Source of the DNA: Phycisphaera sp.
Lineage (GTDB): Bacteria; Planctomycetota; Phycisphaerae; Phycisphaerales; Zrk34
DNA: 44,739 nt
Assembly (NCBI GenBank): GCA_016125285.1
Contig: WGMA01000070.1
Location: 1 to 44,739, forward strand
Direction: 5' to 3'
Shown here: positions 5,527 to 37,089 of the stretch, piece after piece
Layout: every line of letters starts with the position of its first letter
Position numbering within the stretch: the first letter of the stretch is position 1
Position numbers and translations under genes: made by a program
Notes under the pieces: model-generated
Database searches by the model: none
What the model was told of the DNA's origin: nothing
What the model saw: the letters and a program-made list of their open reading frames with translations, nothing else

Positions 5527-5661
5527 TGCTGGATGCTGGATGCTGGATGCTGGATGCTGGATGCGGCCATCGTAGGCTAACGCCGATCCAGCATCGGGAG
5601 CGCAGCGACCCATCTAGCATCCAGCATCGCGAGCATCAGCGAGCCATCCAGCATCGCCCGC
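5527..5661. repeat. CTGGATG heptad repeat element, copy 1
   Basis: A tandem array of the 7-bp unit CTGGATG (5527-5564) is followed after about 20 bp by inverted copies (GATCCAGCATCG, CATCTAGCATCCAGCATCGCG, GCCATCCAGCATCG to 5660). It includes the recurring GAGCGCAGCGA motif. The whole element can fold into a long hairpin. It fills the gap between the tmRNA and ispD. Related copies lie at 12,677 and 31,004. Confidence 0.85.
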
Positions 5662-5689: not shown

Positions 5690-6547
5690 ATGGACGACAA
5701 CCTCCGCATCGCCGTCATCCTCCCCGCCGCGGGACAGAGCAAACGCTTCGGTGACAAGCCCAAGCTCGAGCAGCCCCTCGCCGGGCGCGCCGTGCTGGTC
5801 CGCTCCGTCGAACTGTTCAGCGGCCGCCCCGAGGTCAAGCAGATCATCGTCGCCGTCGACCCCGACAACGTCGACACCTTCAAGTTCCGCTGGGGCGATC
5901 AGCTCGGATTCTTCAACGTCAAGATCGTCGCCGGCGGCAGGATCGAACGCTGGGAAACCGTGAAGAACGCGCTGGACGTCGTCGACGACGACATCACGCA
6001 CGTCGCCGTGCACGACGCGGCCCGCCCCGTCGCCGACGCCGCGATGATCGACCGCGTGTTCACCGCCGCCGCCACTCACCCCGCCGTCGTCCCCGCCGTG
6101 CGCGTCTCCGCGACGGTCAAGCGTGTCGACGCCAAGCCCGCCGCGTCCACCACCGCCGAGGTCGACCCGCTCGACGCGATCCTCGGCGCCGCCGGGAAGC
6201 AGACCGTCGAGGCGTACCCCGTCCTCGAAACCGTCCCCCGCGGCAACCTCTGGCTCGCTCAGACGCCGCAGCTCGTCGCCGTCGACCTGCTGAAGCGCGC
6301 CTACGCCGCGGTCGCCGCTGGCAAGATCGACACCGCTTCGATCACCGACGACGTCGGCCTCGTCGAAGCGCTCGGCGAACCCGTCGTCGCCGTCGAGGGC
6401 GATCCGCTCAACGTCAAGATCACCGTCCCCGACGACCTCAAATTCGCCGAGGCCGTGCTGAACCTCCGCTCCGGCAAGACGTCTAAGGATCTGCTGGGCC
6501 CCAAGCGCAAACACCCGACCTGGGCCCAGAGCAGCGACGACGAGTGA
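5690..6547 (+). CDS. ispD: 2-C-methyl-D-erythritol 4-phosphate cytidylyltransferase
   Basis: Transfers CMP from CTP to methylerythritol phosphate in the MEP route to isoprenoids, in the cytosol. The nucleotide-binding start reads ILPAAGQSKRFGD, with the lysines of KPKLEQPLAG following. Later come VHDAARPV (about residue 105), LAQTPQ, and the C-terminal ITDDVGLVEALGEPV and GDPLNVKIT signatures. At 285 residues it is longer than the usual 225-235. The extra length is a roughly 30-residue insert around residues 145-175 (after VSATVKRVD) and a charged C-terminal tail of about 30 residues ending in SSDDE. No clear ribosome site precedes the ATG, but the frame starts directly before the family's first conserved strand. 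A palindrome 40 bp after the stop may terminate transcription. Confidence 0.93.
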   Translation: MDDNLRIAVILPAAGQSKRFGDKPKLEQPLAGRAVLVRSVELFSGRPEVKQIIVAVDPDNVDTFKFRWGDQLGFFNVKIVAGGRIERWETVKNALDVVDDDITHVAVHDAARPVADAAMIDRVFTAAATHPAVVPAVRVSATVKRVDAKPAASTTAEVDPLDAILGAAGKQTVEAYPVLETVPRGNLWLAQTPQLVAVDLLKRAYAAVAAGKIDTASITDDVGLVEALGEPVVAVEGDPLNVKITVPDDLKFAEAVLNLRSGKTSKDLLGPKRKHPTWAQSSDDE

Positions 6548-6588
6548 CGCCGCGCCACCGCGCGTCCCCCACGTCTCGCACCCGTAAA

Positions 6589-6612
6589 GCCCGGGGCAGG
6601 CCTGCCCCGGGC
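6589..6612. terminator. 24-bp perfect GC palindrome after ispD
   Basis: A perfectly self-complementary 24-mer (half-site GCCCGGGGCAGG) starts 41 bp after the ispD stop. There is no T run, so it is either a weak terminator or one of the shape-conserved intergenic hairpins seen elsewhere in the window. Confidence 0.5.
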
Positions 6613-6642
6613 CCACTCGCCCCGCGCCACCCGGAGCCCCAC

Positions 6643-6978
6643 GTGATCCGCCACGCGCTGCTCACCACCGGCCTCCTGCTCATCCTCACCGCCGCGTATC
6701 TCGGCTGGGGCGTCCACGCCGCATCAGGCGGCAAACATACATCACCCCCCGCACGCACCGTCTATTGGGTCGAATCGGTACTCGGATCGAGAATCCCCGA
6801 TCCAATCCCCGGCCCCGGGAACTACGGTCTTTGGCATGTCGGGCATTGGATGGAAACCGATCGGATGGCGCGATGGACAACCGGCTGCGCTGCTCTGGCC
6901 ATCCCGGCGTCGCCCTCCTCGGCGCGGCCACCATCCGCCGTATCCCGCGGGGCACGGCGACAAACGCAGCCGCGCTGA
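6643..6978 (+). CDS. Small single-pass membrane protein, hypothetical
   Basis: I do not recognise this family. The GTG start is chosen because GGAG lies eight bases upstream and because a hydrophobic segment (ALLTTGLLLILTAAYLGWG, residues 4-22) begins right after it, giving a signal anchor or signal peptide. The remaining 85 or so residues are polar, proline- and arginine-rich and of low complexity toward the end, so the real extent is uncertain. The stop TGA at 6976-6978 overlaps an in-frame ATG of the lipoprotein gene (TGATG), which suggests translational coupling. Confidence 0.4.
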   Translation: MIRHALLTTGLLLILTAAYLGWGVHAASGGKHTSPPARTVYWVESVLGSRIPDPIPGPGNYGLWHVGHWMETDRMARWTTGCAALAIPASPSSARPPSAVSRGARRQTQPR

Positions 6979-7961
6979 TGCTCATCGCGTTCACGATCGC
7001 GGGTTGCTCCACAACCTGGCGTGACGAATCGCTCTTCACCCTTTACGCCGACACACCGCCCGGTCCGCCACAGATGCTGGACTTCGATTTCATCGTGCCG
7101 TGCGCCGATGGCCTGCTCGAGGCCGTGCCGCGCGTGCCACCCGAACAACTGCGTCACCTTGGCCGTCGCGCTGCGCTCGCTGACCGACGGCTCGATCGAT
7201 TCGTTCTCCTGCATGACGAACCCGCGGCACAGTTCTACTTCTGTTGTTGGCCGCCGTTCCCCTACCCGCGCGAAGAGGTCATGCGTGACCACTACGGCAT
7301 CGTTATCCGTAAGGCGATCTCTACCGACTTCGCCGCCGGCTACAACTCCGAATCCAAACGCTTCATCGAGCAACGCTACGGCCCCGACATCTGGAAACAC
7401 ATCCGTCGTGACACGCACGAACTCTTCCTTGAACGCCTCGAAGACCTCCCCGTCGACTTCCACCCCCGACGCGTCGCGATGGTCGTCGACGCGTCAGCGC
7501 AGATGACACCCTTCTGGTCGTCGGTCGCCAAGGAATTCGAAAAAACAATCCACGAAGAAGAGATTCACCAGACACTCACGCTGACGATCGCACGCGGCGA
7601 GAACGTCGAACGTGTGATCGATCTGCCCTACCGCTACATGACGCCGCACCGCAAGCAGCGGGCGATCTCCGGTGTGTGTGACCCACACCTGGCGCCGAGC
7701 GGCACCCCCGACCTGCGGCCCGCGATCGAAGTCGCACTGCAACAGAAACCCGAGATACTGTACATCCTCACCCACGATCCGGTCGCACATGACGATCAGC
7801 CCGGCGCCGCCGACCGCACAATCGACTTCATCCGCCAGCACATCCCGCCGGACGCAAAAACACCGAAAATCGTCTTGCTCCTGTGGGGCGACAGCGACGA
7901 CACCAATGCCCGCAAGATCGTCGACGCGTTCGGCGGCCTGATCAAACACGCCGACAAATAG
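6873..7961 (+). CDS. Lipoprotein with von Willebrand A-like domain
   Basis: The start is uncertain. ATG at 6873 gives a basic stretch, a hydrophobic run and the lipobox IAGC (cysteine at about residue 45). ATG at 6978 is coupled to the upstream stop but leaves a very short signal. The mature part has no strong family match. Residues about 190-350 look like a von Willebrand A fold: VAMVVDASAQM is a degenerate MIDAS (DxSxS is reduced to DASAQ), then TPDLRPAIEVALQQKPEILYILTHD, and a closing IVLLLWGD. The middle region is acidic with a conspicuous CCWPPFPYPRE loop. The likely location is the envelope, lipid-anchored. The metal site may not bind. Function is unknown. Confidence 0.6.
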   Translation: MDNRLRCSGHPGVALLGAATIRRIPRGTATNAAALMLIAFTIAGCSTTWRDESLFTLYADTPPGPPQMLDFDFIVPCADGLLEAVPRVPPEQLRHLGRRAALADRRLDRFVLLHDEPAAQFYFCCWPPFPYPREEVMRDHYGIVIRKAISTDFAAGYNSESKRFIEQRYGPDIWKHIRRDTHELFLERLEDLPVDFHPRRVAMVVDASAQMTPFWSSVAKEFEKTIHEEEIHQTLTLTIARGENVERVIDLPYRYMTPHRKQRAISGVCDPHLAPSGTPDLRPAIEVALQQKPEILYILTHDPVAHDDQPGAADRTIDFIRQHIPPDAKTPKIVLLLWGDSDDTNARKIVDAFGGLIKHADK

Positions 7962-7998
7962 TGGCAACACCTCAACGATTGTCTGGCCCCGGGGTCGC

Positions 7999-8017
7999 GC
8001 AGGGGCGGAGCCCCTGC
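7999..8017. terminator. Intergenic hairpin GCAGGGGC-GGA-GCCCCTGC
   Basis: A perfect 8-bp stem with a three-base loop lies between the lipoprotein stop and the oxidase gene. No T run follows. It belongs in form to the other compact GC hairpins of this window. Confidence 0.45.
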
Positions 8018-8060
8018 GGATCGAGTTGATCAACCACACCCCAACGTCGATCATTGAAGG

Positions 8061-9215
8061 ATGAGCAACACACGCTTCGACGTCATCGTCATCGGCGTCG
8101 GCACGATGGGCAGCGCCGCGTGCTGGCGGCTGGCGCATCGCGGCGTGCGTGTGCTCGGCATCGATCGCTACGACGTACCCCACACCCACGGCGCTCACCA
8201 CGGCGGCTCGCGCGTCGTGCGCAAAGCCTACTTCGAGCACCCCGACTACGTGCCCCTGCTGCACGAAGCCTACCGCGGCTGGGACGAACTCGAACGCGAC
8301 AGTGGGCGCACGCTGCTGCACCGCACCGGCGGGCTCTACATGGGTCGGCCCGACAGCGAAGCGATCGCCGGGTCGCTCGAGGCGATGCACACCCATGACC
8401 TCGATCACGAGGAGCTGACGCGCGAGCAGGTGCACGAGCGCTACCCGATGTTCCGGCTGCCGGAGGACTTCGTCGGGCTGATCGAGCCGGTGACGGGGTT
8501 CGTCGAACCGGAGGGCGCGGTCGCGGCGATGTCGGAACTCGCCAGACAGAGCGGCGCGGAGCTGCGTTACGGCGAGCCGGTCACGACGTGGAGCGCGACA
8601 TCCACCGGCGTCACCGTGCAGACGCAGCGCGACACGTATCACGCCGACCGGTTGATCGTCAGCGCGGGCGCGTGGTCGAGCGTGATCGGCAACGCGTGCG
8701 GCAAACTCGGCGTCGATCTCGTTGTCACCCGCCAGGTGTTCGGCTGGGTCACGCCCCGCCGCCCCGAGCTGTTCGCGATCGGCACGCTGCCCGTCTGGCT
8801 CATCGAGACCGGCCGCGGCGGCCAGCACTACGGCATGCCCATGCTGCCCGGGCAGACCAGCCTCAAGATCGCGTTGCACCATCCCGGCACGCCGACCGAC
8901 CCCGACCGCGTCGACCGCACCACGCACCCCGACGACGAGGCGACGTTCCGCTACGTGCTCCGCGATCACATCCCCGACGCCGACGGCCCGATGGTCGACA
9001 TGAAAACCTGCCTCTACACCAACAGCCCCGATAGCCACTTCGTCATCGACCGCCATCCCGACCCCGCGGCGCACGACCGCGTCATCATCGCGTGCGGGTT
9101 CAGCGGCCACGGCTTCAAGTTCGCCCCCGCCGTCGGCCGCGCGCTGGCCGACCTCGCCGCCGACAACCGCACCGATCTGCCGATCGACTTCCTCGGCGTG
9201 TCGCGCTTCAAGTGA
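8061..9215 (+). CDS. solA: FAD-dependent oxidase, monomeric sarcosine oxidase / N-methyltryptophan oxidase type
   Basis: Oxidative demethylation of a secondary amine such as sarcosine or an N-methyl amino acid, with covalent FAD. The N-terminal dinucleotide fold reads VIVIGVGTMGSAACWRLA and ends at GIDRYDVPHTHGAHHGGSR, the typical MSOX/MTOX sequence around the FAD. Near the C-terminus CLYTNSPDSHFVIDRHP holds the cysteine that bonds FAD in this family (the YTxxPDxxF motif), followed by ACGFSGHGFKFAP. The length of 384 fits the usual 370-390. GAAGG directly abuts the ATG, an unusually short spacing. No transporter or one-carbon genes are adjacent, so the true substrate is unknown. The gene symbol is by family resemblance only. 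Confidence 0.88.
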   Translation: MSNTRFDVIVIGVGTMGSAACWRLAHRGVRVLGIDRYDVPHTHGAHHGGSRVVRKAYFEHPDYVPLLHEAYRGWDELERDSGRTLLHRTGGLYMGRPDSEAIAGSLEAMHTHDLDHEELTREQVHERYPMFRLPEDFVGLIEPVTGFVEPEGAVAAMSELARQSGAELRYGEPVTTWSATSTGVTVQTQRDTYHADRLIVSAGAWSSVIGNACGKLGVDLVVTRQVFGWVTPRRPELFAIGTLPVWLIETGRGGQHYGMPMLPGQTSLKIALHHPGTPTDPDRVDRTTHPDDEATFRYVLRDHIPDADGPMVDMKTCLYTNSPDSHFVIDRHPDPAAHDRVIIACGFSGHGFKFAPAVGRALADLAADNRTDLPIDFLGVSRFK

Positions 9216-9302
9216 CGCGACGCGAAAAATCAGGGAATCTCCCGCGGATACCGCGATCGCAACACTTAAAATGGAGGTAGACAGTGGCGAAAGGAGCTTG
9301 CC

Positions 9303-9707
9303 ATGATCTGCCCCAAATGCAACGCCCAGATGGAAACCGTGACCTACGACGGGCTCGAGGTTCAGCGCTGCACGAGTTGCCAGGGCCTGTGGTTCGACGT
9401 GCTCGAGAAGGAGCGCCTCGCGGCGATGGAGGGCTCGGAGGCGATCGACACCGGCGACCCGAAGGTCGGCAGGTTCACGCACGACATCGAGGCGACGAAG
9501 TGCCCGCGCTGCGACGGGAAGATGATCCGCATGGTCGACCCGGCACAGCACCACATCTGGTTCGACTCGTGCTACTCGTGCGGCGGCGTGTTCTTCGACG
9601 CCGGGGAGTTCACCGACTACAAGCACCACGACTGGATCGGTCGCCTCAAGGACCTGTTCACGCCGGAGCAGCGCGAAGAGGAAGAACCGCCGCACCCCGA
9701 ATCGTGA
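9303..9707 (+). CDS. Zinc-ribbon protein of the TFIIB-type (zf-TFIIB) family
   Basis: There are two zinc-ribbon modules in tandem: CPKCNAQM with CTSCQGLWFD in residues 3-32, then CPRCDGKM with CYSCGGVFFDAGEF in residues 61-94. The C-terminal GLWFD/GVFFDAGE(F/L) signature is typical of zf-TFIIB-family proteins of unknown function, common in planctomycetes. A strong AAAGGAG lies eight bases before the ATG. The C-terminus is acidic. It converges on the following lipoprotein gene with only 7 bp between stops. It is probably cytosolic and binds zinc. No partner can be deduced from the neighbours. Confidence 0.85.
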   Translation: MICPKCNAQMETVTYDGLEVQRCTSCQGLWFDVLEKERLAAMEGSEAIDTGDPKVGRFTHDIEATKCPRCDGKMIRMVDPAQHHIWFDSCYSCGGVFFDAGEFTDYKHHDWIGRLKDLFTPEQREEEEPPHPES

Positions 9708-9714
9708 TCACACG

Positions 9715-10251
9715 TCACTTCTTCTGCACACCGCCGCCCGACCGCTCGATCTTCTCTTCGATCGCCTTGTCGACCTTGCCGTAGCGGATGTCGCCCTGCA
9801 TCTTGAACAGCGCCTTGTCGAGGTGGTCCAAGCCGGCGAGCTTGTCCTTGGCGGTGTTGTACCGCGCGGTGCGTCCGCCGGCGGTCAGCTCGACCTCGTA
9901 GACCTTGTCGCCCTTCGGGAACAGGTCGCCCTTGCCGTCGAGCAGGCCGTAGCGGTCGATGATCTGCCACAGGTAGCGCAGCTGATCGTCCTTGAGCCTG
10001 CCGACGTCCTCCGCCTGACGCAGGTTCGCGTCGCGTCCCCCGGCGTACTGCAGCGTGCCGTTGCGCTCGACGATGTAGTACACGTAGCGCTGCTCGCCGG
10101 GCGTCGAGACGAACAGCGAGATCTTCAGCGGCTGCGGGTAGCCGGCGTCGGCCTCACGCACCTGCTCGCCGGTCGCGCAGCCGCACACGAGCAGCGCGAG
10201 CGTGACGAGCGTGCATGTCGCGGCGAGGTTGAGAATCATCCGTCGTGTCAT
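9715..10251 (-). CDS. Lipoprotein, hypothetical
   Basis: The ATG at 10251 is preferred over an upstream frame extension because AGGAGG lies ten bases before it and the sequence then begins MTRRM, a hydrophobic run and the lipobox LLVCGC (cysteine at about residue 25). The mature part of about 155 residues is unassigned. It has a beta-rich start (LKISLFVSTPGEQRYVYYIVERNGTLQYAGG), then a helical part with KDDQLRYLWQIIDRYGLL, and ends in a charged helix. This resembles small lipoproteins that respond to protein sequestration but has no diagnostic motif. It is likely anchored to an envelope membrane. Confidence 0.75.
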   Translation of the reverse strand: MTRRMILNLAATCTLVTLALLVCGCATGEQVREADAGYPQPLKISLFVSTPGEQRYVYYIVERNGTLQYAGGRDANLRQAEDVGRLKDDQLRYLWQIIDRYGLLDGKGDLFPKGDKVYEVELTAGGRTARYNTAKDKLAGLDHLDKALFKMQGDIRYGKVDKAIEEKIERSGGGVQKK

Positions 10252-10568
10252 GTTCGTTGCGCCTCCTGCCCAGGGTACCGTTCGGATTCTACCGCAGAGA
10301 ACGCGGCGAGCGCAGCGAGGCGGTGAAGGTGTTGGCAAAGTCCCTTCACGATGACGGGTCGTGCGCGAAGGCGCGTCCCGGCAACGTCGCCACCGCCGAC
10401 GGCCGGCGCCACGCGCTTGGGCACGTCATCGGACGCTCGGAACGGCCCGCAACCGGGCAAACCTGATCCGCACGACGCGGCAACTGCTGGTTGGGACCGG
10501 AGCGGGTGTTAGAATCGACCATCGAACGCCCGGCGGCACCGCCGGGCGGAGGCCTATGGGGACTGACG
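10252..10568. other. Divergent intergenic region
   Basis: This region separates the lipoprotein and the sulfatase, which are transcribed outward, so it must hold both promoters. It contains GGCGAGCGCAGCGAGGCGG (10,307-10,325), a motif that recurs in the CTGGATG repeat elements. I see no clear -35/-10 pair or further gene. Confidence 0.4.
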
Positions 10569-12080
10569 ATGCACATGAGAGTCATCCTGGCGTGTCTGGG
10601 TGCAGCGCTGTTCCTGATCATCGGTCCGGCGCGACTGAGCGCCGCGGATCGCGTTTCGCCCAACGTGTTGTTCATCGCGGTGGACGACCTGCGCTGCGAC
10701 CTGAACTGCTACGGTGTGAAATACGTGCACTCGCCGCACATCGACCGGTTCGCGTCTTCAGCGGTGACGTTCACGCGCGCCTACGTGCAGGTCGCGGTAT
10801 GCAACCCCTCGCGCGTGAGCGTGATGACGGGGCTGCGGCCGGACACGACGAAGGTGTGGGACCTGGCGACGGAGTTCCGCACGACGGCTCCGAACGCCGT
10901 GACGATCCCGCAGCACTTCCGCGCGCACGGGTACTACGCGGTGTCGTTCGGCAAGGTGTTCCACAACCCCTGGCCGGACAACGTGTCGTGGAGCGAGCCG
11001 CACCGCTGGCCAGAAGGCGCGGAGCTGTGGTCGCGTGAGGCGAAGCAGCGTCTCTCGGCGTTCCGCGAGAAGATGCGTGCCGATGGCAGGCCCCAGGCGG
11101 CGATCGACCGCGTGCGCGCGGCGGCGACTGAGATCATCGACATCCCCGACAATCGGCACATCGACGGCGCGATCGCGGACCAGGCGATCGAGGCGATGGC
11201 GCGGCTCGTGAAGCGCGACGAACCGTTCTTCCTGGCGGTAGGCTTCATGCGCCCGCACCTGCCGTTCGTCGTGCCGCGCAAGTACTGGGAGCTGTACGAC
11301 CGCAACGCCTTGCCCCTGGCGTCCAACCCCTACTTCCCGAAGGACATGCCGGGCGTGGCGTTCGGCGATCGCTCCCGCGGCGGGCTGTACGAGTTGACCG
11401 ACTACATGGACTACGTCGATGCGCCGTCGCCGTTCGACGCGCCGCTGTCCGAAGCGCAGCAGCGCGCGTTGCGTCACGGGTACTACGCGTCGGTGTCGTT
11501 CACCGACGCGCAGGTCGGTCGCGTCCTCGACGAACTCGACCGGCTGAAGCTGACGGACAGCACGGTGGTGGTGCTGTGGAGCGATCACGGCTGGAAGCTC
11601 GGCGAGCACAACGGGTGGTGCAAGCAGACGAACTTCGAGGTCGACACGCGTGCGCCGCTCATCATCCGCCAGCCACACGCGGCGTTGAACGGCAAGCCGT
11701 GCGACGCCATCGTTGAGTTCGTCGACATCTACCCGACGCTGTGCGAACTGGCGGGCCTGCCGATCCCCGCGGCGCTCGAAGGCAAGAGCCTCGCGCCCCT
11801 GCTGCGGGGCGCGCCCGCGCCGAAAGACAGCGTCGCATTCAGCCAGTTCGAGCGCGTGCATGAGAAGAAGCAATACATGGGTTACGCGATGCGGACGGAT
11901 CGGTATCGCTATGTCGAATGGCTCGATCGCTCGACCTGCGCGGTGGCGTTCCGTGAGCTGTACGACCACCGATCTGATCCCGACGAGAACGTAAACATCG
12001 CCGTCGCGCCGGAGAACGCGCCGCTGCTGGAATCGCTCAGCGCTCACATGTGGAAGGCGTTGCCGCGTCCCCTGCCGTGA
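10569..12080 (+). CDS. Exported sulfatase, iduronate-2-sulfatase type
   Basis: A type I sulfatase that hydrolyses sulfate esters, probably of sulfated polysaccharides. The start at 10569 gives an immediate signal peptide (MHMRVILACLGAALFLIIGP, cleavage near LSAA). The metal-binding start is NVLFIAVDDLR. The formylglycine site is CNPSRVSVMTGLRPDTT at about residue 78 (C-x-P-S-R). The second metal and catalytic region is VVLWSDHGWKLGEH (about residue 340). VCNPSR, GLRPDTT and VGFMRPHLPF match the iduronate-2-sulfatase-like group that planctomycetes have in many copies. Length is normal. It needs a formylglycine-generating enzyme, which is not in this window. No carbohydrate-degrading neighbours are present, so the substrate is open. 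Its stop is 1 bp from that of the convergent membrane protein. Confidence 0.9.
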   Translation: MHMRVILACLGAALFLIIGPARLSAADRVSPNVLFIAVDDLRCDLNCYGVKYVHSPHIDRFASSAVTFTRAYVQVAVCNPSRVSVMTGLRPDTTKVWDLATEFRTTAPNAVTIPQHFRAHGYYAVSFGKVFHNPWPDNVSWSEPHRWPEGAELWSREAKQRLSAFREKMRADGRPQAAIDRVRAAATEIIDIPDNRHIDGAIADQAIEAMARLVKRDEPFFLAVGFMRPHLPFVVPRKYWELYDRNALPLASNPYFPKDMPGVAFGDRSRGGLYELTDYMDYVDAPSPFDAPLSEAQQRALRHGYYASVSFTDAQVGRVLDELDRLKLTDSTVVVLWSDHGWKLGEHNGWCKQTNFEVDTRAPLIIRQPHAALNGKPCDAIVEFVDIYPTLCELAGLPIPAALEGKSLAPLLRGAPAPKDSVAFSQFERVHEKKQYMGYAMRTDRYRYVEWLDRSTCAVAFRELYDHRSDPDENVNIAVAPENAPLLESLSAHMWKALPRPLP

Positions 12081-12676: not shown

Positions 12677-12825
12677 CGCTGGATGCCGGATGCTGGACGC
12701 TGGATGCTGGATGCTGGATGCTGGATGCTGGATGCTGGATGCTGGATGCGATCAGCGTACACGTCGCCCCTATCCAGCATCGCGAGCGCAGCGAGCCATC
12801 CAGCAACCAGCATCGGGAGCAAAGC
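12677..12825. repeat. CTGGATG heptad repeat element, copy 2
   Basis: About nine units of CTGGATG (some degenerate: CCGGATG, CTGGACG) run from 12,677 to 12,748. Inverted arms follow (TATCCAGCATCGCGAGCGCAG, GCCATCCAGCAACCAGCATCGGGAGC). This is the longest copy. It separates the membrane protein from pheT, and it is translated into spurious MLDAG- or SIQHP-type frames on either side if starts are misplaced. Confidence 0.88.
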
Positions 12826-19841: not shown

Positions 19842-21362
19842 TCACGCCATGATCTTCTCGTACGCCTCGCCCTCGTTGATGTCGATGCGTTCGGGGCGGC
19901 CCTTGTAGCGGTAGATAAGCTGCGTGTGGTCGACGCCGAGGATGCGCATGACGGTGGCGTGCAGGTCGTGGACGTGGAGGCGGTCTTCGATGGCGTGCAG
20001 GCCGAGCTCGTCGGTGGCGCCGATGGCCTGTCCGCCCCGGACGCCGCCGCCGGCCATGACCATGGTGAAGCCGGTGGGGTTGTGGTCGCGTCCGCTGCCC
20101 TTCTCGGACATCGGCGTGCGTCCGAACTCACCGCCCCACACGACGAGCGTCGACTCGAGCAGCCCGCGCTGCTTGAGGTCGGTGAGCAGCGCGCCGATGG
20201 GCTGGTCGGACTCGGCGAAGCGGTCGCCGTGGTTCTTCTCGATGCCGGAGTGGGCGTCCCACTTCGACCCGGCGCCGTGGTAGACCTGCACGAAGCGCAC
20301 GCCGCGTTCGACGAGGCGACGGGCGAGCAGGCAGTTGCGGCCCATCGACTCGGTGACGGGGTTGTTCAGGCCGTACATTTCTTTCGTCGCGGACGACTCG
20401 CGTGCGAGGTCGACGGCTTCGGGCGCGGCGGCCTGCATGCGGAAGGCGAGCTCGTAGGAGCGGATGCGTGCGTCGAGCTCGGACTCCTGCTGCCGCGTGA
20501 GCATGTGACGCTCGTTGAGGGCGTGGAGGAAGTCGAGCTTGCCGCGCTGCTGGGCGGCGTTGATGCCCTTGGGCGTGTTGAGGTTGGAGATCGGCTCTTC
20601 GCCGACCTTCAGCGGCGTGCCCTGGTAGAGCGAGGGCATGAAGCCGGACGACCAGTTGCGCGGGCCGTTGGTGATGGTGTCCTTGCGGTCCTGCATGACG
20701 ACGAAGGCGGGCAGGTTCTGGTTCTCGGTGCCCAGGCCGTAGGTGACCCACGCGCCGAGCGACGGTCGGCCGGCCTGCGGGGCGCCGGTGTTCATCTGGC
20801 AGACGCCGGTCGAGTGGTTGATGCCGTTGGCCCAGCAGGAACGGATGACGGCGAGGTCGTCGGCGTGCTGAGCGATGTTGGGCAGCCAGTCGCTGATGAC
20901 CAGGCCGGACTCGCCGTAGTGCGACCATTTGCGCTTCGACGCGAGGATGGGCGACGACTGCTCACCCATCGCGGTGACGAGGTTCTTGCGCATCGACGGC
21001 GGGACGGGCTGGCCGGCGAGTTCGTTGACCTTCGGCTTGTAGTCGAACGAGTCGAGGTGGCTGGGCCCGCCCTCCATGAACAGGAAGATGACGGACTTGG
21101 CGCGGGCCGCGAGGTGCGGCAGCTTCGGCGCGAGCGGGTCGTCGGGGTCGATAGCCGCGGAGGCGGCCGACGCGGCGGGCGCGGCGAACAGCGGGTTGTT
21201 GGCCAGCAGCGAGCTCAGCGCGATCGCGCCGAACCCCGCCCCGCCGCGCAGCAGCGCGTTGCGACGCGAGACCAGGTCCATTTCGGATTGCGGATTGCGG
21301 ATTGCGGATTGGGCTCCGCGTGTGGGGGCGGCTTGCGAGTCTGTTCGTGTGTTTCGCTTCAT
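19842..21362 (-). CDS. DUF1501 protein, Tat-exported
   Basis: The ATG at 21362 has GAGG nine bases upstream. Residues 17-28 (AQSAIRNPQSEM) are encoded by an ATTTCGG heptad repeat. A second ATG at 21281 would skip it but has no ribosome site. The twin-arginine signal follows: SRRNALLRGGAGFGAIALSSLLA. The mature domain is DUF1501, a sulfatase/alkaline-phosphatase-like fold: FMEGGPSHLDSFDYKP, SCWANGINHSTGVCQMNTG, RLVERGVRFVQVYHG, VVWGGEFGRTP, and the end RPERIDINEGEAYEKIM. These proteins are nearly always encoded next to DUF1549/DUF1553 cytochrome proteins, as here (60-bp gap). Function is unknown; they probably act in the periplasm. Confidence 0.92.
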   Translation of the reverse strand: MKRNTRTDSQAAPTRGAQSAIRNPQSEMDLVSRRNALLRGGAGFGAIALSSLLANNPLFAAPAASAASAAIDPDDPLAPKLPHLAARAKSVIFLFMEGGPSHLDSFDYKPKVNELAGQPVPPSMRKNLVTAMGEQSSPILASKRKWSHYGESGLVISDWLPNIAQHADDLAVIRSCWANGINHSTGVCQMNTGAPQAGRPSLGAWVTYGLGTENQNLPAFVVMQDRKDTITNGPRNWSSGFMPSLYQGTPLKVGEEPISNLNTPKGINAAQQRGKLDFLHALNERHMLTRQQESELDARIRSYELAFRMQAAAPEAVDLARESSATKEMYGLNNPVTESMGRNCLLARRLVERGVRFVQVYHGAGSKWDAHSGIEKNHGDRFAESDQPIGALLTDLKQRGLLESTLVVWGGEFGRTPMSEKGSGRDHNPTGFTMVMAGGGVRGGQAIGATDELGLHAIEDRLHVHDLHATVMRILGVDHTQLIYRYKGRPERIDINEGEAYEKIMA

Positions 21363-21421
21363 GATTCACGTCCTCACTGTGTGATCTGCGAGTGTCAGCT
21401 CAATCCGAAATCCGAAATCGC
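21280..21421. repeat. ATTTCGG heptad repeat element spanning the DUF1501 start
   Basis: The left arm (21,280-21,313) has five units of ATTTCGG/ATTGCGG. The right arm (21,400-21,421) holds the reverse complement (CAATCCG AAATCCG AAAT). The 86 bp between carry the DUF1501 start codon and its ribosome site. The right arm ends one base before the stop codon of the upstream gene. Confidence 0.8.
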
Positions 21422-31003: not shown

Positions 31004-31100
31004 GCTGGATGCTGGATGCGCCCATCGAACAACCCGCGCCGATCCAGCATCGCGAGCGCCAGCGAGCCATCCAGCAACCAGAATCGGCGAGCGCCACTCG
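31004..31100. repeat. CTGGATG heptad repeat element, copy 3 (short)
   Basis: Two units of CTGGATG (31,004-31,018), then 23 bp, then inverted arms GATCCAGCATCGCGAGCGCC and GCCATCCAGCAACCAGAATCGG. It lies 3 bp from the stop of the DJ-1 gene and may serve as its transcript end. Confidence 0.82.
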
Positions 31101-34083: not shown

Positions 34084-37000
34084 TCAGTTCGCCACGATGT
34101 TCACCATCCGGCCCGGCACGACGATCGTCTTGCGGACGGTCTTGCCGTCGATCTGCTTCTGCACCTCGGCGTCGGCGAGGACCGCCTGCTCGATCGCGTC
34201 CTTGTCGGCGTCCGACGCGACCTTGATCCGCGCGCGGACCTTGCCGTTGATCTGCACCGGCAGCTCCACCTCGTCCTCGACGAGGTACTTCTGATCCACC
34301 GCCGGCCACGACTCGTACGCGATCGTTCCATCGTGCCCCATACGACGCCACAGCTCCTCGGCCAGGTGCGGCGCCATCGGCGCGAGCATCAGCACGAACG
34401 GCTCGGCGACGGCGCGCGGCAGCGTCGCGGCCTGCACCAGCGCGTTGTTCAGCTCGATCAGCGAAGCGATCGCCGTGTTGTACGACATGCGCTCCATGTC
34501 GTCGGTCACCTTCGCGATCGTCTTGTGCAGCGCCCGCAGCTGATCCTCGCTCGGCGCGTCGTCGTTGACCAGCAGGTCGCCCGTCTCGACGTTCACGAAG
34601 TTCCGCCAGACGCGCTTCACGAAGCGGCTGAGGCCGACGATGTCCTGCGTCTCCCACGGCTTGGACTGGTCCAGCGGGCCCATGTACATCTCGTAGAGCC
34701 GCAGCGTGTCGCACCCGTGCTGCTCGCACATCTCGTCGGGCGACACGGCGTTCTTGAGCGACTTGCCCATCTTGCCCAGCGAGCGCGTGACCTCGTCACC
34801 CTCGATGAAGTACTTGCCGTCGCGCGCCTCGACCTTCGTCGCGTCGCGGTAGATGCCGCGCTCGTCCTGGTAGCTGTACGCCTGGATGTAGCCCTGGTTG
34901 AACAGCTTGCCGAACGGCTCGGGCGTCGACACGTGGCCGAGGTCGAAGAGCACCTTGTGCCAGAACCGCGCGTACAGCAGGTGCAGCACGGCGTGTTCCG
35001 CGCCGCCGACGTACAGATCGACACCGCCCGCGTGCATCCCGCCGGACTTCTTCTCGCTGACCATCCAGTAGTCTTCGGCTGCCTGGCCGACGAAGCGGTC
35101 GTCGTTGCGGTTGTCGATGAATCGCAGGTAGTACCAGCACGACCCGGCCCACTGCGGCATCGTGTTCAACTCACGCTCGTACTTCACGCCGTCGATCTCG
35201 ACGATGCGCCACTCGTCGCCGGACCGCGCCAGCGGCGGGCGCGGCGGCGCGTTCGGGTCGTCCGACGACGTCGGCGAAAAGTCGTCCATCGGCGGCAGTT
35301 CGACCGGCAGGTCGCCCGCGTCGACCGCGCGGATGCGGCCGGTGTGCTTTCCGTCGGCGTCCAGCTCGTGGAGGATCGGGAACGGCTCGCCCCAGTAACG
35401 CTGCCGGCTGAACAGCCAGTCGCGCAGCTTGTACTGCACCTTGAAGCTGCCCACGCCCTTCTCGTCGAGCCACGCGGTGATCTTTCGCTTCGCGTCCGGC
35501 GTGTGCAGGCCGTCGATGCTTATCTCGGAATTGGCGGAGTTAATCGATTCTCCAGCACCAGTGAACGCTACTGCGTACATGTCTGGATCACGACTGTAGA
35601 GGCCCCTGATCGAATGCAGCGACTTCTTCCACTGTTCATCACTCAATTCGGCATAACCGGGTTCCTTTTCGTATGTATTCTCGCGAAACCAATCATCCGA
35701 CGGCATGACTACCGGCTTGATCGGAAGCCGAAATCGTTTCGCGAACTCCATATCGCGCTGATCGTGCGCCGGCACGGCCATGATCGCGCCGGTGCCGTAG
35801 CCCATCAGCACGTAGTCGGCGATCCAGATCGGGATCGCCTGCCCGTTGACGGGGTTGATCGCGGTCGCGCCGGTGAACACGCCGGTCTTGGTCTTCGTCT
35901 CGGCCATGCGGTCGACGTCGCTGCGCGCCTCGGCCTCGGCACGATAGGCGGCGATTGCGGATTTCGGATTTCGGATTTCGGATTTGGCCCCGCCCTTCCA
36001 CGACTCGGGCGTGCCTTCCGGCCACTCGTCGGCGACAAGCTCATCCACCAGTGGGTGCTCGGGCGCGAGCACCATGTAGGTTGCGCCGAACAGCGTGTCC
36101 GGCCGTGTCGTGTAGACGCGGATTGTCTCCTGTGACATCCGAGATCCGAGATCCGAAATCCGAAATTCCACATGTGCGCCCTCGCTGCGGCCGATCCAGT
36201 AACGCTGCATCGACTTGATCGCCTCGGGCCAGGCGACCATCTCCAGATCGTCGGCCAGGCGGTCGGCGAACGTCGTGATGCGCAGCATCCACTGCCGCAG
36301 CGGCCGCTTGAACACCGGGTGATTGCCTCGCTCGGACCGGCCCTCGTTGGTGACCTCCTCGTTGGCCAGCACCGTGCCCAGCGCCGGGCACCAGTTCACC
36401 GGCACCTCCGCGAGATACGCCAGGCGGTACTCGGCGAGCAACGCCTCCTGCTGCGTGGCGTCCAGCTCGTGCCACTTGCGTGCGCCGATCGGCGCGCCGC
36501 CGATCGCGTCCAGCCCGCCCGACGCGCCGACGTCAACCAGTCCGCCGTCGATGCTGACGTCGATCTCACCGGAACGGAGTCGGGCGATCAGTTCGCTGAT
36601 CGGCCGGGCGCGGTTGACTGACGGATCGAACCAGCTGTTGTAGAGCTGCAGGAAGATCCACTGCGTCCACTTGTAGTAGTCGACGTCGGTGGTGGAGATG
36701 CAGCGGTCCCAGTCGTAGCTCAGGCCGAGGCGGCGGAGCTGACGGGTCATGTTGTCGATGTTCTGCTCGGTGGTGACGCGCGGGTGCACGCCGTGCTCGA
36801 CGGCGAACTGCTCGGCGGGCAGGCCGAACGCGTCGAAGCCCATCGGGTGCAGCACGTTGAACCCGCGCATGCGCTTGTAGCGTGCGACGATGTCGGTAGC
36901 GATGTAGCCGAGCGGGTGGCCGACGTGCAGGCCGACGCCGGACGGGTATGGGAACATGTCCAGCACGTAGTACTTGGGTTTCGACGCATCGAAGCCCGCG

Positions 37001-37089
37001 TCGCCGGGGTTGCCGACGCGGAAGGTCTGGTTGCTGGCCCAGTATTCCTGCCAGCGTGCCTCGATCTCGGTGTGGTCGTAGTTGCTCAT
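34084..37089 (-). CDS. leuS: Leucyl-tRNA synthetase with heptad-repeat insertions
   Basis: Charges tRNA-Leu and proofreads in its CP1 domain. 1001 residues, longer than the common 820-970. The HIGH motif is in YPSGVGLHVGHPLGY (about residue 50-65). The CP1 editing domain runs from about 290 to 480 (VYTTRPDTLFGATYMVL, GYGTGAIMAVPAHDQRD). The second signature reads LGKMGKSLKNAV (about residue 773), with glycine for the first serine of KMSKS. The anticodon-binding domain and C-terminal tail are complete. Within CP1 two stretches, about residues 307-318 (FRISDLGSRM) and 366-379 (KSEIRNPKSAI), are translations of 7-bp repeats inserted in frame. A sigma-70-like promoter lies just before the ATG. 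Confidence 0.95.
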   Translation of the reverse strand: MSNYDHTEIEARWQEYWASNQTFRVGNPGDAGFDASKPKYYVLDMFPYPSGVGLHVGHPLGYIATDIVARYKRMRGFNVLHPMGFDAFGLPAEQFAVEHGVHPRVTTEQNIDNMTRQLRRLGLSYDWDRCISTTDVDYYKWTQWIFLQLYNSWFDPSVNRARPISELIARLRSGEIDVSIDGGLVDVGASGGLDAIGGAPIGARKWHELDATQQEALLAEYRLAYLAEVPVNWCPALGTVLANEEVTNEGRSERGNHPVFKRPLRQWMLRITTFADRLADDLEMVAWPEAIKSMQRYWIGRSEGAHVEFRISDLGSRMSQETIRVYTTRPDTLFGATYMVLAPEHPLVDELVADEWPEGTPESWKGGAKSEIRNPKSAIAAYRAEAEARSDVDRMAETKTKTGVFTGATAINPVNGQAIPIWIADYVLMGYGTGAIMAVPAHDQRDMEFAKRFRLPIKPVVMPSDDWFRENTYEKEPGYAELSDEQWKKSLHSIRGLYSRDPDMYAVAFTGAGESINSANSEISIDGLHTPDAKRKITAWLDEKGVGSFKVQYKLRDWLFSRQRYWGEPFPILHELDADGKHTGRIRAVDAGDLPVELPPMDDFSPTSSDDPNAPPRPPLARSGDEWRIVEIDGVKYERELNTMPQWAGSCWYYLRFIDNRNDDRFVGQAAEDYWMVSEKKSGGMHAGGVDLYVGGAEHAVLHLLYARFWHKVLFDLGHVSTPEPFGKLFNQGYIQAYSYQDERGIYRDATKVEARDGKYFIEGDEVTRSLGKMGKSLKNAVSPDEMCEQHGCDTLRLYEMYMGPLDQSKPWETQDIVGLSRFVKRVWRNFVNVETGDLLVNDDAPSEDQLRALHKTIAKVTDDMERMSYNTAIASLIELNNALVQAATLPRAVAEPFVLMLAPMAPHLAEELWRRMGHDGTIAYESWPAVDQKYLVEDEVELPVQINGKVRARIKVASDADKDAIEQAVLADAEVQKQIDGKTVRKTIVVPGRMVNIVAN
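35953..36168. repeat. ATTTCGG heptad repeat element inside leuS
   Basis: Left arm 35,953-35,989: five units of ATTTCGG (first ATTGCGG). Right arm 36,137-36,168: ATCCGAG, ATCCGAG, ATCCGAA, ATCCGAA, the reverse complement in a shifted register. The 147 bp between are ordinary LeuRS coding sequence (LFGATYMVLAPEHPLVDELV). Both arms keep the reading frame. The second copy of this family is at 21,280-21,421. Confidence 0.85.

Follow-up and report, generated by a model that had tools for sequence, protein, structure and literature searches.

The two opposed heptad arrays within the leuS gene of Phycisphaera sp. probably belong to the GGATTTC family of widespread hairpin elements, which consist of an arm, a PF05635 (S23p) gene and an inverted arm and have dispersed gene-less short copies. 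In the same genome, GGATTTC arms enclose a PF05635 gene (C36:12352-12648) in a full element at C36:12266-12732. A first-pass annotation of the window, i.e., the whole analysed stretch of 44,739 nt, had read the leuS arrays as a non-transposase element inserted in frame or as arrays growing by slippage. That interpretation is partly supported; it lacked the point that such arms are the ends of elements carrying PF05635 genes.

The host gene leuS (34084-37089, minus strand) encodes a leucyl-tRNA synthetase of 1001 aa (TIGR00396, 957 bits), and both arms lie in its frame within the editing domain (PF13603, residues 296-467), as the first-pass annotation had it. The left arm (35953-35985, plus strand, 33 nt) is of the GATTGCGG plus (ATTTCGG)n type, and its minus strand codes for KSEIRNPKSAI (residues 369-379), the very residues said to have been added to the editing domain. 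The right arm (36133-36166, minus strand) is inverted and codes for FRISDLGSRMS (residues 309-319; 36133-36165). The unit ATTTCGG, proposed for both arrays, holds for the left arm; the right arm is degenerate, with the units ATCCGAG, ATCCGAG, ATCCGAA and ATCCGAA. Tandem Repeats Finder reported period-7 arrays at 35953-35985 and 36137-36163, and an inverted-repeat finder paired 35954-35983 with 36137-36166 (30 nt, 90% complementary), the left arm being forward and the right arm reverse, i.e., convergent. The measured gap is 151 nt, not 147 bp as originally given. The arms pair in the predicted fold of the leuS mRNA (231 nt, -109.6 kcal/mol, z = -5.0 against 200 shuffles), in agreement with the suggestion that they could form an RNA hairpin. 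On its inner side the left arm is followed by GGCCCCGC, which is near to GGCTCCGC found beside some other GGATTTC-family arms. With up to two mismatches allowed, ATTTCGGATTTCGG matched the window 12 times where 0.16 matches were expected, and its exact form had 62 matches in the 6.09-Mb genome, overlapping ones included, against 0 for the reversed control; therefore, chance can be ruled out as the origin of the arrays. Arrays of this type number in the tens across the genome.

We assessed heptad arrays in a sample of 1.09 Mb out of 6.09 Mb (18%) of the genome; as the sample was partly chosen for known arrays, its array densities are not genome-wide. It holds 174 period-7 arrays, 66 of which measure 31-33 nt, and the commonest arm length is approximately 32 nt (4.5 heptads). 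Pairs within 400 bp were inverted in 40 cases and direct in 3. Word-based calling yielded 104 arms in seven families, and same-family neighbours up to 300 bp apart were convergent in 23 cases, divergent in 0 and direct in 1 (24, 3 and 5 up to 1000 bp). That is, arrays counted beyond leuS do come in inverted pairs, as the first-pass annotation had asked. In pairs up to 400 bp apart, GGATTTC, AATGACC, GCTGGAT, GGAACGC and GGGACAG arms are invariably the left ones. An interrupted consensus, AATGACC AATGACC AAGCACC AATGTCC AATG (with variants), recurs in AATGACC arms at unlinked loci whose loops are unrelated. Octad families also occur, with ATTTGGTG in 36-nt arms on C32 (read by eye). Comparisons of pair loops, both among themselves and against the sample, found clear relatives within the GCTGGAT family only. 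GCTGGAT arrays reach 136 nt, and two contigs, C7 (1-130) and C46 (1-136), start within such arrays; therefore, the assembly probably breaks at these arrays, and fewer are counted than exist. As a replication of the pair statistics, stretches of four relatives (G033, G085, G058 and G042), partly chosen for arrays, were fetched. G033 and G085 had fewer arrays per base than our own sample. Only three inverted pairs occurred in the four stretches together. All three lay in G033, and the two that are GGATTTC-like show the usual polarity; G085 and G058 contained arrays of approximately 100 nt without an inverted pair.

A profile search of the 97%-complete genome found six PF05635 genes above the cut-off, and none was found in 14 control genomes. 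All six are enclosed by convergent heptad arms, each of another family: GCTGGAT on C76, GATTTTT on C35, CATTTTC on C30, GGATTTC on C36, AAAATGC on C22 and AATGACC on C73. The arm scores of these loci ranged from 32 to 59, and the best control scored 30. In addition, each of the six arm families has gene-less relatives in the same genome. Over 32 nt, the AATGACC arms of C73 have the same sequence as arms of gene-less pairs, at C30:161120 and C55:35297 for the left arm and at C55 for the right arm. GGATTTC arms occur without the gene in leuS, dnaE2 and many more places, and the GATTTTT, CATTTTC and AAAATGC families matched one gene-less pair each. The arms of at least five further families (GGAACGC, GGGACAG, GAATGAC, TCAGTAG and the octad ATTTGGTG) surround none of these six. 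Elsewhere in the genome, AATGACC arms 680 nt apart (L307, C5:4891-5626) hold a lipoprotein-like ORF of 219 aa and no PF05635; in a relative, G081, matches of the same pattern lie 720 nt apart as in L307 (C109:34252 and 34972), but with another arm in between.

The window contains further copies. A second convergent GGATTTC-family pair (21280-21419; arms 21280-21311 and 21402-21419) lies at the 5' end of a DUF1501 gene, where the left arm, with the inner edge GGGCTCCGC, adds SAIRNPQSE to the N-terminus of the protein. Of the GCTGGAT family, one element (5527-5657) has an array at 5527-5564 and inverted units, with a shared inner block at 5586, and another (12678-12814) has an array at 12678-12749, the shared block at 12772 and inverted units to 12814. 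The 25-nt inner block of the C76 element was found at 15 GCTGGAT places with up to three mismatches, itself included, and the reversed control had 0. A short GCTGGAT-type copy (31004-31070), with two units followed by a ATCCAGCATCGCGAGCG stretch that by eye resembles the inner block, is outside these 15 matches.

The same arrangement is present in the order and in other bacteria. PF05635 was found in 98 of 201 genomes of the order. We fetched our own six loci and the 30 best others; two (L200 and L205) were clipped and 34 of the 36 were used. Inverted arms scoring above the best of 256 controls surrounded PF05635 in 30/34 loci, our own six included, and the other four were below the threshold. 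This threshold, 31, was chosen after the 256 control windows, which were random places, not matched genes. We also scanned GTDB species genomes with one peptide pattern and kept the best 80 of at least 584 confirmed loci, so one PF05635 subfamily is over-represented among them. Four loci with flanks below 150 nt (L241, L259, L261 and L263) were left out of the scoring; among the remaining 76 of the best 80, drawn from many phyla, 59 had an arm score of at least 31, compared with 3/269 controls (at L228, L240 and L252), which were again random places. The arms are mostly of period 7 or 8; in these 59 loci from the best 80 of at least 584, the left arm had period 7 in 50, 8 in 8 and 9 in 1. Among the 17 of 76 loci scoring under 31, again from the best 80 of at least 584, five (L239, L252, L256, L296 and L300) still have period-7/8 arms; Rfam reported tRNAs at one of the 17 loci and no rRNA at any of them. 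A GGATTTC-type pattern occurred in 16 of the 201 order genomes, all 16 of which encode PF05635 (p = 5e-6 against the base rate of 98/201, relatedness ignored), while the reversed pattern had three matches across the 201. The AATGACC pattern AATGACCAATGACCAA occurred in 14 genomes, 12 of which encode PF05635 (p = 0.004); the two others, G062 and G158, have one match each.

Alternatively, the arrays could be plain microsatellites, i.e., heptads that grow by replication slippage and survive where harmless, with inverted pairs arising via template switching between nearby arrays. Some arrays are indeed long and satellite-like (GCTGGAT up to 136 nt; the unpaired arrays of approximately 100 nt in G085 and G058), and the available part of one report describes heptamer satellites in other bacteria (PMC6749651). 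However, the polarity is fixed (23 convergent against 0 divergent pairs within 300 bp), the arms typically measure 31-33 nt (66/174 arrays), and interrupted arms with AAGCACC as the third unit are identical at unlinked loci. Growth by slippage, one of the two origins first suggested, fails on these three points when taken alone. The enclosure of PF05635 genes by arms across phyla likewise counts against slippage as the sole cause, and we consider plain microsatellites unlikely.

The arms frequently adjoin stop codons. We assessed distances to gene ends with a home-made gene finder, leaving 62 intergenic arms, as 42 of the 104 lay in predicted genes or at stretch ends. The outer edge lay no more than 12 nt from a predicted gene end in 35/62 arms and the inner edge in 4/62, with median distances of 10 and 118 nt, respectively. 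Among 34 stop-adjacent arms, 7 of 18 GGATTTC arms begin exactly 3 nt past TGA, 5 of 7 AATGACC arms overlap the stop (two as TA-AATGACC), and 2 of 5 GCTGGAT arms read TGA-T-GCTGGAT. We extended the stop-codon test to 86 armed loci, after dropping three of unknown strand and counting any open frame of at least 90 aa as an ORF. In 60/86 loci, the stop of a codirectional ORF lay between -12 and 25 nt from the 5' arm, and in 20/86 the stop of a convergent ORF lay at the 3' arm; 752 random positions gave 3.5% and 5.6%. The arms also occur between tRNA genes. One stretch (L103, C32:10001-28000) has 32 tRNA genes, with a tRNA gene array at 6400-12000, and several of its spacers are hairpins of a heptad or octad family that differs by spacer; several hairpin edges lie 4-14 nt from the tRNAs. 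We also considered arms that flank tRNA genes and dropped the idea, since the tRNAs sit between separate hairpins.

Such positions raise the alternative that the hairpins are host signals under selection, such as terminators or RNase III sites, and that PF05635 genes merely happen to use them. The hairpins adjoin stop codons and tRNA genes, terminator-like hairpins are visible by eye in some loops, and RNase III cleaves the stem of the Coxiella intervening sequence, according to the available part of the report (PMC4990558). However, no such role is evident within leuS and dnaE2, neighbouring tRNA spacers differ in family, and the arms are patchy in relatives, with the two family patterns in 16/201 and 14/201 genomes. 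A purely host-selected signal is thus improbable, and we return to hairpin elements with PF05635 genes and gene-less copies.

The first-pass annotation had called for an alignment of leuS with relatives. We aligned 29 relative rows of the same order, of which 28 were usable (L059 is a wrong-strand frame), and heptad-type residues were absent at either arm place in all 28 usable relatives. As arms conserved in every relative and unpaired arrays were the two findings that would have refuted the first-pass reading, neither check refuted it. Both arms sit in protein loops whose length also varies among relatives. The sequence separating the arms (35986-36132, minus strand; TTRPDTLFGATYMVLAPEHPL...) is native and shared with relatives in the alignment. 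Because the 151-nt loop is native leuS sequence, the pair is not a simple one-piece insertion; the idea of a non-transposase element lying in frame in an essential gene stands as a reading, but not as a single insertion of arm, loop and arm. We infer from the native loop that the pair may comprise two end-only remnants or one arm that template switching copied inversely to a second place. Beside the right arm lies a native GCGGATT word. In the loop of the right arm, similar inserts (APGF..DPP..PGAN) are present in L041 (G001) and L052 (G045), which belong to two families of the order, and this loop may be a hot spot for another element.

Insertion of arm, loop and arm as one unit was found in dnaE2, the error-prone polymerase gene (C51:65000-68677; NF004225, 1421 bits), which carries GGATTTC hairpins in frame at two sites, 38 and 35 residues long. 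In the alignment, the frames of four rows (L166, L180, L187 and L188) are on the wrong strand, L189 is incomplete and L190 resembles a different DnaE. At site 1, 17/29 relative rows have 23-37 residues between anchors, compared with 64 in our genome, and the remaining rows have inserts of their own or are unusable; therefore, arm, loop and arm arrived here as a unit, unlike in leuS. At site 2, 12/27 rows have 22-31 residues compared with 53, and the others vary, which is compatible with a unit insert, less clearly so than at site 1. In three relatives (G014, G036 and G058), site 1 carries insertions with other, period-8 arms (periods by eye), and these insertions encode PF05635 (E = 2e-35, 5e-32 and 5e-26, respectively). 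In G058 (L325, C1:1842501-1847000), a PF05635 element with GGGGCAAA octad arms splits dnaE2 and breaks the polymerase frame. The element of G014 is absent in its congener G009; approximately 50 nt around the site are unalignable, so that no boundary is readable.

Near-copies in another relative also took the form of a unit. G004 has three gene-less 113-nt AATGACC elements with loops 79-89% identical and flanks unrelated, and their arms match those of L309, an element with a PF05635 gene. In our own genome, a GCTGGAT element is nested, by eye, in the loop of an AATGACC element (L323). The G004 copies and this nesting favour dispersal as a unit. Gene-less pairs, including the G004 copies, have terminal inverted repeats and lack a gene, as MITEs do. 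By eye, no target-site duplication was seen in our own-genome pairs and the G004 copies, and the flanks of dnaE2 site 1 are too diverged.

Dispersal could alternatively have been driven by diversity-generating retroelements, of which the hairpins would be remnants moved by a reverse transcriptase, PF05635 being kin to Avd. The available part of one report describes Avd (4DWL) and PF05635 (2GSC) as homologous (PMC10053308), and our genome has one RVT_1 gene (C12:84804-85334). However, RVT_1 was found in 56/201 genomes compared with 98/201 for PF05635 (RVT_1 model only, in drafts that may lack genes), and not in G004 (seven PF05635 genes), G005 (five), G014 (one) and G018 (one), indicating that a reverse transcriptase is seemingly not needed. 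In addition, four of our own proteins are matched by TIGR02436 but not by the Avd model, and the sole Avd-model match, a relative's protein (L198), is under the cut-off. Retroelement remnants are thus very unlikely. A need for reverse transcriptase was dropped from our scheme, as RVT_1, the only model used, had no match in several PF05635 genomes. GAATGAC arms (C12:90610-91250) lie approximately 5 kb from our own RVT_1 gene.

Several known systems resemble the elements in part. Cyanobacterial STRRs are tandem heptad repeats, and comparison with them, suggested by the first-pass annotation, proved a good lead. In Xanthomonas and Nostoc, GGGNATC repeats (Rehm 2015) have period 7 and approximately four units and lie beside stop codons on the sense strand (PMC4692102); our arms share these traits. 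The available part of that paper explains the repeats as quadruplexes and draws no link with PF05635. That our arms are such regulatory repeats, with four units folding into a quadruplex near gene ends, is hardly credible: GGGNATC likewise prefers four units and sits behind stop codons (PMC4692102), but this reading is contradicted by families without G tracts, as AATGACC arms have none yet equal length, pairing and stop-codon placement, and GATTTTT and AAAATGC arms enclose PF05635 genes too. Hairpin elements of the PF05635 type recall other dispersed repeats as well. REPINs are paired with a RAYT gene in the same genome. They are short dispersed inverted-repeat units, in the available part of their description (PMC3116915); unlike REPIN/RAYT, our full elements hold a four-helix bundle gene, not a transposase, and their arms are period-7/8 arrays. 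The TAACTGA heptamers of Beggiatoaceae, cyanobacteria and Bacteroidetes form dispersed arrays of two to six units near genes, patchy across phyla; unlike our arms, most of them precede start codons, and they are reported as direct repeats apart from one indirect set; the abstract makes no mention of PF05635 (PMC4679880).

A close likeness is to the intervening sequences (IVS) of 23S rRNA. In the available part of its description, the IVS of Coxiella burnetii has an S23p ORF in the loop of a 28-bp terminal inverted repeat and tandem GACAGAT heptamers upstream of the ORF (PMC4990558). Our full elements similarly hold the S23p gene between inverted, heptad-bearing ends. Whereas IVS lie in 23S rRNA helices (PMC4990558), our elements are scattered over sites after stop codons, between tRNA genes and within protein genes; they also differ in having gene-less copies and several arm families per genome. 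The leuS pair lies in leuS and not in a 23S rRNA helix, and its loop has no S23p ORF; six full elements elsewhere in our genome have this ORF in the loop. PF05635 is also present in cas loci, between cmr genes (PMC3936711), and appears by name in the legend to a figure on novel CRISPR associations (PMC10910872), in the available parts of both papers. This association could arise from heptad arms read as CRISPR arrays or from insertion of an element. In the literature searched, largely without subscription journals and partly as excerpts, we found no paper tying PF05635 to dispersed heptad arms.

A possible mechanism can be outlined. The elements would move as units, helped in trans by the S23p of their own family. 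S23p is a four-helix bundle whose structures were solved as pentamers; its PDB relatives, 2gsc (XCC0516) and 2rld, have five chains each, and an S23p pentamer may grip the single strand of an arm with one subunit per word; a 32-nt arm would then correspond to five 4-nt words with four 3-nt spacers, and a 36-nt arm to five words with 4-nt spacers. The TRAP protein likewise binds one word per subunit on a single strand. Insertion would take place into transcribed, unconstrained sequence in sense orientation, and copies in frame without stops would persist in protein loops. We tentatively propose, as a conjecture with somewhat less than an even chance, that these are mobile elements found across bacterial phyla, without a transposase, recombinase or reverse transcriptase of their own, whose sole gene encodes a homopentameric four-helix bundle that reads five words and moves its own hairpin and the gene-less copies, with heptad satellites and IVS as their traces.

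Heptad satellites appear to be the same kind of element as the intervening sequences of rRNA. The analysis joins three separate topics, namely the heptad satellites of cyanobacteria, Xanthomonas and others, the intervening sequences of 23S rRNA, and the orphan PF05635 "four helix bundle protein". If the elements move, they would constitute a widespread bacterial element whose sole gene encodes a non-enzymatic-looking pentamer, and the function of PF05635 would be directly testable via binding to its own arms. In addition, the arms show how essential enzymes can gain peptide inserts in frame.
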